Shown piece after piece: positions 1,868 to 9,270 of a stretch of 9,844 nucleotides of DNA. The DNA comes from Candidatus Desantisbacteria bacterium CG1_02_49_89. Lineage in GTDB: Bacteria > Desantisbacteria > UBA1551. The notes under the pieces were generated by a model. The model ran no database searches. It saw nothing but the letters and a program-made list of their open reading frames with translations, and was not told the origin of the DNA. Made by a program: the position numbers and the translations under genes. The DNA lies in assembly GCA_001871075.1 (NCBI GenBank), contig MNUP01000052.1:1-9844 (forward strand). Direction: 5' to 3'. Position 1 is the first letter of the stretch; each line of letters begins with the position of its first letter.

Positions 1868-2875
1868 CTAAGGTGAAAGTAATGCTCTTAACTCATCCGG
1901 CCCGCCAGCTGAAAGATTCGCACCGTAATAAAGCCGGTATTTATTTGCCGTTCCTTTTATCAAAATGACATCGGGGTCCATCAACGCTTCGACAGAACCT
2001 GAAGGAACGAGGATATTGCCTGACTCTAAGGTAAAATTCCTGCCGTCAGACGAAACCGCGGAACGGATCCTCAGGTCGCCTATGGGCTGGCCTTCGGGCG
2101 GAGTGGTGAAGAAAAACCAGTATGAGCCGCCGGGCTTCCTGACAATATCCGGGTCGTTAACCTACCCGCCGATGGTCCCGCCGGTTATGGATATCTGCCC
2201 TTCCCTTGACCACGTCTGGCCCGAATCCGTGGAAGTAGCGGTATGAACGCGGGAAATTAAGGGAGAAGCAACGAAATACATGCGCAGGGTGGAAGTGTTG
2301 TAATGGATCAGGTCGGGCACTGATACGAAACTGTCCTCGCCGGCATTCGCGACCATAACCGCCCCGCCTGTAAAGGGACCCGGTGTTTTTATGAAAGTTA
2401 TGCCGTTATTTGAGACCGCGCGGTTCAGCCTCTCTGTGGTCGGCGAGTTTGTCTGGATCCCGTAGATCATCACGTAGTTACCGTCATCCATCCTGATGAC
2501 GGATGGGTTTGTCGCTCCGAGATCTGAAATACCGGTGAACGTCTGCGATTCCCAGAAAAGTCCGTCCGTGGAAACGGCGCTCCACAGACCGCCCGGAGCG
2601 GTAAAATACATCCTGTGCGTAATGCTGTCAGGCATAAGAATAGTGCAGGTGGAGGTCAGCGCTTTGGTATCGCCGTTCCACGTAAGGCTTTCCTTTGTCC
2701 AGGATGTAGAATATTGCGTCTCTCCGGGAGTTTTAGGGATCACGCCGGCTTCCTGGCCCTTTGTTATCACCTGCTCCGCCCCGCCCGAACTGCCGAAACC
2801 AACGAAAAAAGCGCAGGAAAAGCTCGTCAACGCCAACCCTGATATCAGGATACCGCAAAATATTACTTTTTTCAT
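1868..2875 (-). pseudogene. Secreted five-bladed beta-propeller protein interrupted by an in-frame TAG
   Basis: The frame runs from ATG at 2875 for 237 codons, hits TAG at 2162-2164, then continues in the same frame for 97 codons to a second TAG at 1868-1870. The part after the stop is clearly the same protein. The blade signature 'NPSVIR', 'VPDLIHY' before the stop recurs after it as 'NDPDIVRKPGG..WFFF' and 'MDPDVILIKG..YRLYY'. Residues 1-20 are a signal peptide (MKKVIFCG, hydrophobic core, SFSCA); the Cys could be lipidated but the lipobox is poor. Blades of the 'YRMYF..AVSTDG..W' type resemble BNR/sialidase or GH43/GH62-like propellers, so a carbohydrate-related surface role is plausible but no catalytic set is assigned. 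Without readthrough, the 237-residue product would lack about two blades. The ribosome binding site is GGAGG, about 11 bases from the ATG. Calling this a pseudogene rather than recoding or a sequencing error is inference. Confidence 0.78.
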
Positions 2876-3835: not shown

Positions 3836-3866
3836 ACAACCTTTTTTTATTACTGTCTCGTTAGTA

Positions 3867-3889
3867 AATAAATGAACCCGTCCCCTTTT
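3867..3889. repeat. REP motif, GAACCCGTCCCC variant, copy 2
   Basis: This is identical over 23 bp to the copy at 1844-1866 and in the same orientation. It ends one base before the TGA stop (3891-3893) of the AAA ATPase gene, reproducing the spacing seen at the beta-propeller gene. Confidence 0.8.
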
Positions 3890-5283: not shown

Positions 5284-5405
5284 GAGACGAAGATCCCAGC
5301 AGCTTAATCCCGATTTATCGGGATTAGCAGGGGCCAAGGAAAAAGTGAAAAACCTCTCCCACCTACGAGGTGGAACAGGTCTCGTCTTTAGCCGCGGGCC
5401 CCTGC
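5284..5405. other. Possible structured intergenic region with three nested or adjacent stems
   Basis: The stems are TAATCCCGAT (5305-5314) with ATCGGGATTA (5317-5326), a perfect palindrome around TT; GCAGGGGCC (5327-5335) with GGCCCCTGC (5397-5405), a perfect 9-bp stem starting directly after the first hairpin; and CCACCT (5359-5364) with AGGTGG (5368-5373) inside that stem. AGACGA near 5285 can also pair with TCGTCT near 5382, but this competes with the 9-bp stem. It lies between the membrane-protein gene and the AAA ATPase promoter. It could be a structured RNA, a larger hairpin mobile repeat, or part of the adjoining REP unit (5413-5436). It has no convincing protein-coding content. Confidence 0.5.
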
Positions 5406-5412
5406 CGGCTGG

Positions 5413-5436
5413 AAAAATAGAACCGTCCCCCTTTTT
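5413..5436. repeat. REP motif, GAACCGTCCCCC type
   Basis: AAAAATAG precedes GAACCGTCCCCCTTTTT. It matches 8096-8119 at 23 of 24 positions. It begins about 10 bases beyond the TAG stop of the small membrane protein in the transcription direction. Confidence 0.8.
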
Positions 5437-5446
5437 CCTAATCATT

Positions 5447-5632
5447 CTATGATCTTTTACGGCTAAATAGTCTGATAACGGCAGAAACAACAAACCAGAT
5501 GCCGAAAACAAACGTCATCGTGAAAAATACCGATTCTTCAACCTTCCAGATACCGTATATGACGTTATGCAGAACAGCGCAAGCCGCAGCCACGGCCAGA
5601 AACCAAAAGGGATTTTTGATTCTTTTCAGCAT
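5447..5632 (-). CDS. Small two-helix membrane protein, function unknown
   Basis: The 61-residue product has two hydrophobic segments: residues about 9-28 (FWFLAVAAACAVLHNVIYGI) and about 35-56. A short charged link (KVEES) joins them, and basic ends (MLKRIK at the N-terminus, RLFSRKR at the C-terminus) would place both termini in the cytoplasm. I do not recognise a named family, although short proteins of this design (PFxxLAxAAxxAVLHN) recur in uncultured bacteria. The start is ATG at 5632 with AAAGGA about 11 bases upstream, a longish spacing. An ATG 10 bases earlier is out of frame. The gene stands between REP motifs on both sides, so it may be a carried single-gene unit. Its reality rests on the coherent membrane topology and the ribosome binding site. 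Confidence 0.6.
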   Translation of the reverse strand: MLKRIKNPFWFLAVAAACAVLHNVIYGIWKVEESVFFTMTFVFGIWFVVSAVIRLFSRKRS

Positions 5633-5713: not shown

Positions 5714-5739
5714 AATTAAGTAATGTGTCCCCGGAATTA
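5714..5739. repeat. REP motif, GTGTCCCCGGAATTA type, copy 1
   Basis: AATTAAGTAATGTGTCCCCG followed by GAATTA matches 9245-9270 at 25 of 26 positions, in the same orientation. It lies just beyond the mntA-hepT terminator and forms the left edge of that cassette. Confidence 0.72.
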
Positions 5740-5848: not shown

Positions 5849-6181
5849 CTATTTTTTAACCTCATTTAGATTTCTCTTTAAGCCGCTGATTTCCGTTTCA
5901 ACTACCTTCCAGGCAAGCTCCAGGTCTATGCCGAAATATTCATGGATGAGGATGTCCCTCATTCCGGCGATCCGCTTCCAGGGAATGCCCGCGTATTTAT
6001 CCTTTATATCGCCGGGAAGGTTTTTCGCGGCTTCCCCGATAATCTCGATCCTGCGTATAACGGCATCCTGCAGCTGTTTTGACGCCAGGAAATCAGCTTT
6101 TGATTTTCCTTTTGTGTATTCTTCGATAAGCTCTATGCACTCAAGTATGTGTTTAATAAAAACCTGCGCGTCCTTTTTCAT
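5849..6181 (-). CDS. hepT: HepT-like toxin, HEPN (DUF86) RNase of an MntA/HepT system
   Basis: The 110-residue all-helical protein is a DUF86/HEPN family member. The catalytic Rx4HxY motif is intact: R75-DILI-H80-E-Y82. The preceding IIGEAAKNLP (48-57) and IPWKRIAGMRD (66-76) are typical of HepT. Characterised HepT proteins are RNases that are neutralised when the partner MntA adenylylates the tyrosine of this motif. The ATG at 6181 overlaps the mntA TGA by four bases (ATGA), so translation is probably coupled; no strong separate ribosome binding site is seen. The operon ends at the terminator at 5766-5791. Length and motifs look complete, so it is probably functional. Role as toxin is from the family, not shown here. 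Confidence 0.9.
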   Translation of the reverse strand: MKKDAQVFIKHILECIELIEEYTKGKSKADFLASKQLQDAVIRRIEIIGEAAKNLPGDIKDKYAGIPWKRIAGMRDILIHEYFGIDLELAWKVVETEISGLKRNLNEVKK

Positions 6182-6459
6182 AAAATAACTCTCTGTTCCC
6201 TTAAGATCCTGTCCCTGAGAAGCGGGTAAAGGGAGTTGTAGGTAAGAACGTCGACTTTTCTTTTTAATGTCTCTTCAAGCTCGATTTTAAGCCCTGAAAG
6301 GTCGAGCAGGCTTTTACTGCCTTTAAATTCCACAAGAAGGTCTATATCGCTTTTTTTAGTTGCCCTGCCGTTTACAACGGACCCGAAAAGAGAAGCTCTT
6401 TTTACATCGTTCTTTATAAGAATAGGTACAATTTTATTTTTAATCTCCTCGAAGCTCAT
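6178..6459 (-). CDS. mntA: MntA-like nucleotidyltransferase antitoxin
   Basis: The 93-residue protein is a minimal nucleotidyltransferase. It has the GSx10DxD signature: G26-S27, then D38 and D40 in KKSDIDLLVEF, with a third acidic residue D70 in KVDVLTY. In characterised systems this enzyme transfers AMP to the tyrosine of the HepT Rx4HxY motif and silences the toxin. The ATG at 6459 follows AGGAG by 6 bases, a strong site. It is the first gene of a two-gene operon with hepT, expressed from the promoter at 6507-6535. Confidence 0.9.
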   Translation of the reverse strand: MSFEEIKNKIVPILIKNDVKRASLFGSVVNGRATKKSDIDLLVEFKGSKSLLDLSGLKIELEETLKRKVDVLTYNSLYPLLRDRILREQRVIL

Positions 6460-6553: not shown

Positions 6554-6577
6554 ATTAAGGGGGACGGTTCTATTATT
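6554..6577. repeat. REP motif, GAACCGTCCCCC type, inverted copy at the RAYT 3' end
   Basis: On the plus strand it reads AAGGGGGACGGTTCTATTATT (6557-6577 core). It overlaps the RAYT TAA stop (6573-6575). It is the only copy of this motif in the opposite orientation to the others. Confidence 0.82.
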
Positions 6578-7268
6578 CCGGCACCAAAGACTTCCTGGGC
6601 CGTCCTCTTCCCTTAAACTTATCGGTTACCCCGAACAATTCCTCCATCTGCGCGGTGAATTCTGTGTTGCCGTAGAAATACCTTCTTGTAACAGAAGGAT
6701 CGCTTTCCCTTTTCCAGCTTTCTTTTGAAAGCACGAAATCCCGGTACAGCTCCTTCCTTATCTTAAGATCATTCGAGAGCCCTTCATAAGCCGGCTGGGG
6801 ATCCAGCAGCTTATTGACGCTGTCCTGGGTATAGAACCTGTAACTGCTCCAAAGATAGTCTTCCGGCTTCTGCGCCATCCCTGCCCTTACAGGATTTAAT
6901 TCAATGTACGCGGCGCACTCAAGCAGATACTCGTCTTTGCTTATAAGTATGCTCTTAAACCTGTCCTGCCAGAAATGGCCGAAGTGCTTGTACTTCTTCT
7001 TGTAATACTGGGCGTATGACAGGTTCAAAAGCTTCATTGCTTCAGAAAGGCTTGCCTGGCTGTCCGTTATTTCAATGATCAGGTGGACGTGGTTGTCCAT
7101 CAGGACGTAGTGGTACAGCAGGAACTTGAAGCGGTCTTTGCACATTTCCAGGACTTCCAGGTATTCAAGAAAATCCCTTTCATCGTGGAATACGTTAACC
7201 TTATTGTTGCCTCTTGTGATTATATGGTAAACGCCCTCATGGTTGAATATCCGAGCTGCTCTTGGCAT
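6573..7268 (-). CDS. REP-associated tyrosine transposase (RAYT, Y1_Tnp/IS200-like)
   Basis: The 231-residue protein is a Y1 HUH transposase of the RAYT group. It begins MPRAARIFNHEGVYHIITRGNN (typical PR..R....YHI..RGN start, residues 2-22). The metal-binding HUH motif is MDNHVHLI (H60, H62), FWQDRFKS lies at 99-106, and the catalytic tyrosine is Y121 in YIELNPVRAGM. The C-terminus ends in a basic RGRPRKS tail (221-227). All key residues are present, so it is likely active. RAYTs cut and rejoin single-stranded DNA at REP hairpins and are credited with REP dispersal. The ATG at 7268 follows GAGGA by about 6 bases. Its stop lies inside a REP motif, and a matching inverted motif lies upstream of the start. 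Confidence 0.93.
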   Translation of the reverse strand: MPRAARIFNHEGVYHIITRGNNKVNVFHDERDFLEYLEVLEMCKDRFKFLLYHYVLMDNHVHLIIEITDSQASLSEAMKLLNLSYAQYYKKKYKHFGHFWQDRFKSILISKDEYLLECAAYIELNPVRAGMAQKPEDYLWSSYRFYTQDSVNKLLDPQPAYEGLSNDLKIRKELYRDFVLSKESWKRESDPSVTRRYFYGNTEFTAQMEELFGVTDKFKGRGRPRKSLVPE

Positions 7269-7372: not shown

Positions 7373-7388
7373 AATCATCTTTAAAAGA

Positions 7389-7412
7389 AATAATGGAACC
7401 GTCCCCCTTTTT
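7389..7412. repeat. REP motif, GAACCGTCCCCC type, at the RAYT 5' end
   Basis: AATAATGG precedes AACCGTCCCCCTTTTT. It is inverted relative to 6554-6577 and direct relative to 5413 and 8096. It also lies 6 bases beyond the hicBA terminator. Confidence 0.82.
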
Positions 7413-7466: not shown

Positions 7467-7706
7467 CTATAACTTACCTTTTCTCTTTATTCTGAGAAAT
7501 TCCCGGATAGAAAGATGCGCCCTTTTGATCTGCGCGCGCAGCAAGCCGGGCGCCACCTCACCGTGATCGGGTATAACAAGAATAGGATAACCTTCTCTGT
7601 CGTTCACAAGAATAATATGGCTTCCTTCCTGCCTGGCAGCGTAATACCCTATCTTCTGGAAAATTTTTACAGCTTCTCTGCCGGAAATATTGCCAAGAGT
7701 GCCCAT
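7467..7706 (-). CDS. hicA: HicA-like mRNA interferase toxin
   Basis: The 79-residue protein matches the HicA (YcfA-like) dsRBD-fold toxin. It has the N-terminal SGREAVKIFQKIGY helix (8-21), the catalytic histidine in RQEGSHIIL (H30), and PILVIPDHGEVAPGLLRAQIKRAHLS (about 41-66). HicA cleaves mRNA in the cytoplasm and is held inactive by HicB. The ATG at 7706 follows the hicB TAA directly (TAAATG), with GGAG 5 bases before it, so expression is coupled to hicB. The order hicB then hicA is the reverse of the best known E. coli operon but is common. Family length is normal and the key His is intact. Confidence 0.9.
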   Translation of the reverse strand: MGTLGNISGREAVKIFQKIGYYAARQEGSHIILVNDREGYPILVIPDHGEVAPGLLRAQIKRAHLSIREFLRIKRKGKL

Positions 7707-7937
7707 TTAAACTCCGGCGGTAACAGGAACATTAATGTAGGTTGTTTTGATCTCCTCAACCGGTATGCGGCGGTGTTTTTTTCTTGCGACCTTTAAATAT
7801 CCTGAAACGGCTTCCCTGATATTATCCAGCGCTTCCTCTTTCGTCTTGCCCTGAGACATGCATCCGGGAAGCATTGGAACCCCGGCGACGTATCCGCCGT
7901 ATTCAATATCATACTCCAGTTCAACCTTGAATTTCAT
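7707..7937 (-). CDS. hicB: HicB-like antitoxin, short form without a DNA-binding domain
   Basis: The 76-residue protein has the partial RNase H-like HicB fold: YDIEYGGYVAGVPMLPGCMSQG (residues about 9-30) followed by KTKEEALDNIREAVSGYL (31-48). HicB binds and masks HicA. There is no C-terminal ribbon-helix-helix or helix-turn-helix, so autoregulation through its own DNA-binding domain is not expected. The ATG at 7937 follows AAAGGAG by 8 bases. It is first in the operon, behind a consensus promoter and a roughly 110-base leader. Confidence 0.88.
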   Translation of the reverse strand: MKFKVELEYDIEYGGYVAGVPMLPGCMSQGKTKEEALDNIREAVSGYLKVARKKHRRIPVEEIKTTYINVPVTAGV

Positions 7938-7990
7938 TCCAGCGCTCCTTTTAGATCAAATGTACTATCTCGGAATTCCCCCTGCCTTAA

Positions 7991-8056: not shown

Positions 8057-8085
8057 ATTATACCATATTTCAGCTTAAAAGTCAA
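8057..8085 (-). promoter_or_regulatory. Strong sigma70-type promoter of hicBA
   Basis: On the minus strand, TTGACT (8080-8085), 17 bp, then consensus TATAAT (8057-8062). Predicted transcription starts about 110 bases before hicB. It is nearly the same promoter as that of mntA-hepT, with the AAATATGG block before the -10 identical. Confidence 0.87.
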
Positions 8086-8095
8086 CTATACTGGA

Positions 8096-8119
8096 AATAA
8101 TAGAACCGTCCCCCTTTTT
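8096..8119. repeat. REP motif, GAACCGTCCCCC type
   Basis: AATAATAG precedes AACCGTCCCCCTTTTT, identical over 21 bases to the reverse complement of the 6554-6577 copy. It lies 10 bases beyond the hicBA -35 and about 44 bases after the stop of the DUF7309/DUF6930-like gene. A short GGTGACACC palindrome (about 8131-8139) follows. Confidence 0.82.
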
Positions 8120-9244: not shown

Positions 9245-9270
9245 AATTAAGTATTGTGTCCCCGGAATTA
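9245..9270. repeat. REP motif, GTGTCCCCGGAATTA type, copy 2
   Basis: AATTAAGTATTGTGTCCCCG followed by GAATTA differs from the 5714-5739 copy at one base. It lies about 28 bases after the stop of the DUF4139-like gene. CCGGAATTAGTTCCTGG at 9262-9278 forms a small imperfect palindrome. Confidence 0.72.

Follow-up and report, generated by a model that had tools for sequence, protein, structure and literature searches.

The window, the whole stretch of DNA that was analysed, is the complete contig C13 (9,844 bases) of a genome of 2.48 Mb that is distributed over 150 contigs and is 93.5% complete. On its minus strand lies a gene for a secreted, putatively beta-propeller-like protein whose reading frame is broken by a single TAG codon. 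The first-pass annotation had described an in-frame TAG followed by 97 in-frame codons up to another TAG, and the coordinates of this arrangement were confirmed, on the minus strand. The features that matter for the argument are listed here.

1871-2875, minus strand: interrupted gene for the secreted beta-propeller-like protein, 335 codons including the internal TAG, with homologues L198 and L204
2875, minus strand: ATG start of the gene, with 237 codons before the first TAG
2717-2875, minus strand: N-terminal module of 53 residues, consisting of a signal peptide and a AFFVGFGSSGGAEQVI stretch, shared with genes on contigs C11, C47, C74 and C105
2162-2164, minus strand: premature in-frame TAG, codon 238, where both intact homologues have Lys
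1871-2161, minus strand: part after the stop, codons 239-335 (97 in frame), in which the repeat pattern continues (NDPDIV, MDPDVI)
1868-1870, minus strand: second TAG; the C-termini of the homologues point to this as the natural end of the gene
1830-1867, 3858-3889, 5399-5436, 7375-7412 and 8082-8119, with ~6556-6575 on the opposite strand: copies of a short dispersed intergenic element that has a GAACC(C)GTCCCC core and a T-run

The premature stop stands in the context GGC GGG TAG GTT AAC GAC CCG. Just upstream of the start codon of the propeller gene there is an exact 19-nt direct repeat (2878-2896 and 2945-2963), with a Shine-Dalgarno-like minus-strand AGGGAGG in each copy. The core of the dispersed element matches six times in the window and 24 times in 1.67 Mb of the genome, where 0.2 matches would be expected, and one copy begins directly after the second TAG of the propeller gene. 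With a gene for an IS200-like (Y1_Tnp) transposase at 6573-7268, this could be a REP-like element that is served by a transposase of its own. Another dispersed repeat, AATTAAGTA.TGTGTCCCCGGAATTA, occurs at 5714-5739 and 9245-9270, and its core AATTCCGGGGACAC is found 10 times in the 1.67 Mb. Inspection of the sequence also points to two putative toxin-antitoxin-like pairs, one HEPN/DUF86-like with an MNT-like nucleotidyltransferase (5849-6459) and one HicB/HicA-like (~7485-7940). No Rfam family was found to match the window.

The protein has two weak Pfam matches, to BNR_2 (PF13088; 16.7 bits, under the curated cut-off of 31.4) and to Glyco_hydro_32N (PF00251; 16.9 bits, under the curated cut-off of 22.1), which agree, as do the repeated DPD motifs, with a beta-propeller. 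Since both scores lie under the curated cut-offs, we infer the fold from this combination. An AlphaFold model of the single read-through sequence was unusable (mean pLDDT 34), and a search for solved structures matching the protein found none. The likeness to BNR and GH32-type propellers consists of the DPD motif repeated at the blade starts and of the weak profile matches; however, with scores of 16-17 bits, below the cut-offs, a catalytic role is not claimable. The protein also shares its N-terminal module with the SBBP-repeat propellers (PF06739) encoded on the four other contigs, and most of these likewise hold one in-frame stop, but the repeat domain that follows the module in the window gene is of another propeller repeat type.

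Only one genome of the same phylum besides the source genome was available for comparison, and the informative homologues come from families other than that of the source genome. Among 386 genomes searched, one homologue (L198 in genome G063) is 43% identical to the window protein (E 1.4e-51), while a profile search built around it recovered another (L204 in genome G389, E 3.9e-82). Both are single unbroken open reading frames, of 305 and 303 amino acids respectively. In the alignment, both have Lys (within DKIVDP) in the column of the TAG, and both end in the column of the last residue of the window gene before its second TAG. The stretch after the stop aligns to both without a frameshift and without a further stop, its identity to them being 40% and 33% over 95 residues (upstream of the stop, 46% and 38%), and a hexamer model scores it as coding. 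No other relatives of the gene were found in scans of the genome contig collection or by tblastn against plasmids. Because the homologues are unbroken at the site, where they have Lys, and share the C-terminus, this is one protein gene and the stop interrupts it, inside a region that both homologues cover unbroken. The claims of the first-pass annotation that the codons after the stop continue the repeat pattern and that a single substitution suffices to explain the stop are thereby borne out, and the alignment of homologues that it had proposed rejects a natural end at residue 237, since both continue to the position of the second TAG.

We also considered whether the propeller gene has undergone fission into two separate genes, each half being an open reading frame. 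This has almost nothing to recommend it, as the two homologues are each a single frame and the 58 codons that follow the stop contain no ATG, GTG or TTG, which also makes re-initiation near the stop unlikely.

A more general question is whether this organism decodes TAG as an amino acid, be it as pyrrolysine or through reassignment of the codon, given that in-frame TAG codons occur in several of its genes. The genes for the release factors RF1 and RF2 are complete; that for RF1 scores 470.8 bits, and the TGA reported inside its match, which might have suggested a broken gene, is the gene's own stop. No tRNA with a CUA anticodon was present among 43 Rfam tRNA matches in this 93.5% complete genome, and PylS was not found in it either. 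Far from being avoided as a terminator, TAG ends 147 of the 654 long open reading frames that were scored as coding and whose end lies inside the surveyed sequence. The first-pass annotation had already argued against reassignment from the window itself, where the GH29-like gene and the 8163 gene do terminate in TAG, as does, on reading the sequence, the small membrane-protein frame near 5450. On these grounds recoding is rejected as highly improbable: the in-frame TAG does not support amino-acid decoding of this codon.

The same conclusion emerges from the in-frame stops across the genome; a count of in-frame TAGs in conserved genes had been suggested at the outset along with the search for a suppressor tRNA. 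We surveyed ~1.67 Mb, about two thirds of the genome, for stops with a coding signal on both sides, which were accepted by inspection together with domain matches and paralogous repeats, so that the resulting list is hand-curated and incomplete. It holds 14 intragenic nonsense stops (8 TAG, 4 TAA and 2 TGA), at these positions.

TAG: window 2162; C105 5026 and 6483; C10 1080; C44 16767; C72 9363; C78 2241; C53 8474
TAA: C47 169, the same stop being present near 24140 as well, at the end of C74; C74 13595; C74 near 14.8 kb, within the coding region of a signal peptide; C102 4249, in a gene for an IclR regulator
TGA: C53 8810; C94 7944

Several of these stops are spanned by a Pfam domain, namely Laminin_G_3 on C72, DUF2961 on C53 (both stops), DUF6785 on C94 and 3keto-disac_hyd at C105 5026. 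The DUF2961 gene (L108, 8096-9148) thus has two in-frame stops, a TAG and a TGA, within one domain. An apparent excess of TAG in an early list of internal stops disappeared in the wider survey. The observed proportions of 8:4:2 match the 6.4:4.7:2.9 expected from codon usage and single-base changes with transitions weighted by 2 (exact p 0.78), and TAG is therefore not special; TAA and TGA also interrupt genes in the proportion expected, which is a further point against recoding.

The N-terminal module places the window gene in a family that deserves separate attention. Its first 53 residues are 58 to 75% identical to those of the genes on the four other contigs, which are mostly SBBP-repeat propellers. 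Four of the five genes with the module are interrupted by nonsense codons (TAG in the window and on C105, TAA on C47/C74 and on C74), while in the fifth, on C11, the repeats run into unrelated sequence. This is striking against a rough estimate of about one interruption per hundred genes, even if the comparison is post hoc and the family is repetitive. Moreover, the ends of C47 and C74 are identical over ~200 bases and then diverge, so assembly ambiguity may contribute to the clustering of stops in the family. The simplest reading that these data suggest is a set of dispensable paralogues that are decaying. One could instead speculate that the genes with the AFFVGFGSxGGAEQVI module encode surface propellers whose nonsense codons are selectively retained, giving a reversible off or low-expression state through ordinary readthrough or reversion, but we regard this as a long shot. 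Three of the SBBP propellers have the ending TIKYRQY-stop in common (L063 on C74 near 14501, L080 on C105 near 5424, and L155 at the end of C74), and one of them ends after a single blade, as if repeat recombination had lost blades.

The explanation that we consider most likely, and probably the correct one, is that a single recent nonsense mutation interrupts the gene of a dispensable secreted beta-propeller-like protein. Under this explanation, translation should terminate at codon 238 and yield a product without the last two repeat units, which would most likely be unable to close the propeller and hence be non-functional. It accounts for homologues that pass the site with Lys and share the end of the gene, for a frame with neither a frameshift nor a second interruption, for a normal termination apparatus and for similar stops in other genes of the genome. 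The interruption of four of the five module genes, as expected of a dispensable family, lends it further support. We further infer that the organism really has the assembled base, that the mutation happened recently and that the shortened product is inactive.

A point against the nonsense mutation is that the lack of decay after the stop would also agree with a consensus error or with tolerated readthrough. The former, in which the TAG would come from faulty assembly or from a minority strain variant in the MAG consensus and most cells would have an intact gene, is the less improbable of the two, though clearly less likely than a true mutation. The assembly is in 150 contigs, the paralogue family of the gene is repetitive, and local assembly ambiguity or strain mixture shows at the ends of C47 and C74; however, stops are also found in unrelated, single-copy-like genes (IclR, DUF2961, DUF6785 and Laminin_G_3), and the TAG site lies outside any repeat found elsewhere in the genome, its paralogues matching only the N-terminal 53 residues. 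As to readthrough, bacterial genes with a single in-frame stop that are otherwise healthy are well documented, some of them argued to be functional (PMC7918605), and single in-frame stops under purifying selection have been reported as widespread in bacteria (Belinky et al. 2021, PMC7918605). The window gene resembles these in having a homologous frame that is intact apart from one nonsense codon, and its homologue-like downstream part could be kept under selection if ordinary near-cognate readthrough yielded a little full-length protein. In contrast to those genes, the same stop was found in no second genome here; a suppressor tRNA was not found either, and recency alone explains the intact tail. 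We therefore hold tolerated readthrough to be rather unlikely, and less probable than a consensus error.

An annotation should describe the gene as interrupted, neither as two genes nor as a sign of an altered genetic code, and the case has little import beyond this; nothing here exceeds the single in-frame stops already documented in bacterial genes. If the clustering of nonsense codons in the propeller family is true, it would make a small case study of environmental bacteria discarding or switching off surface proteins.
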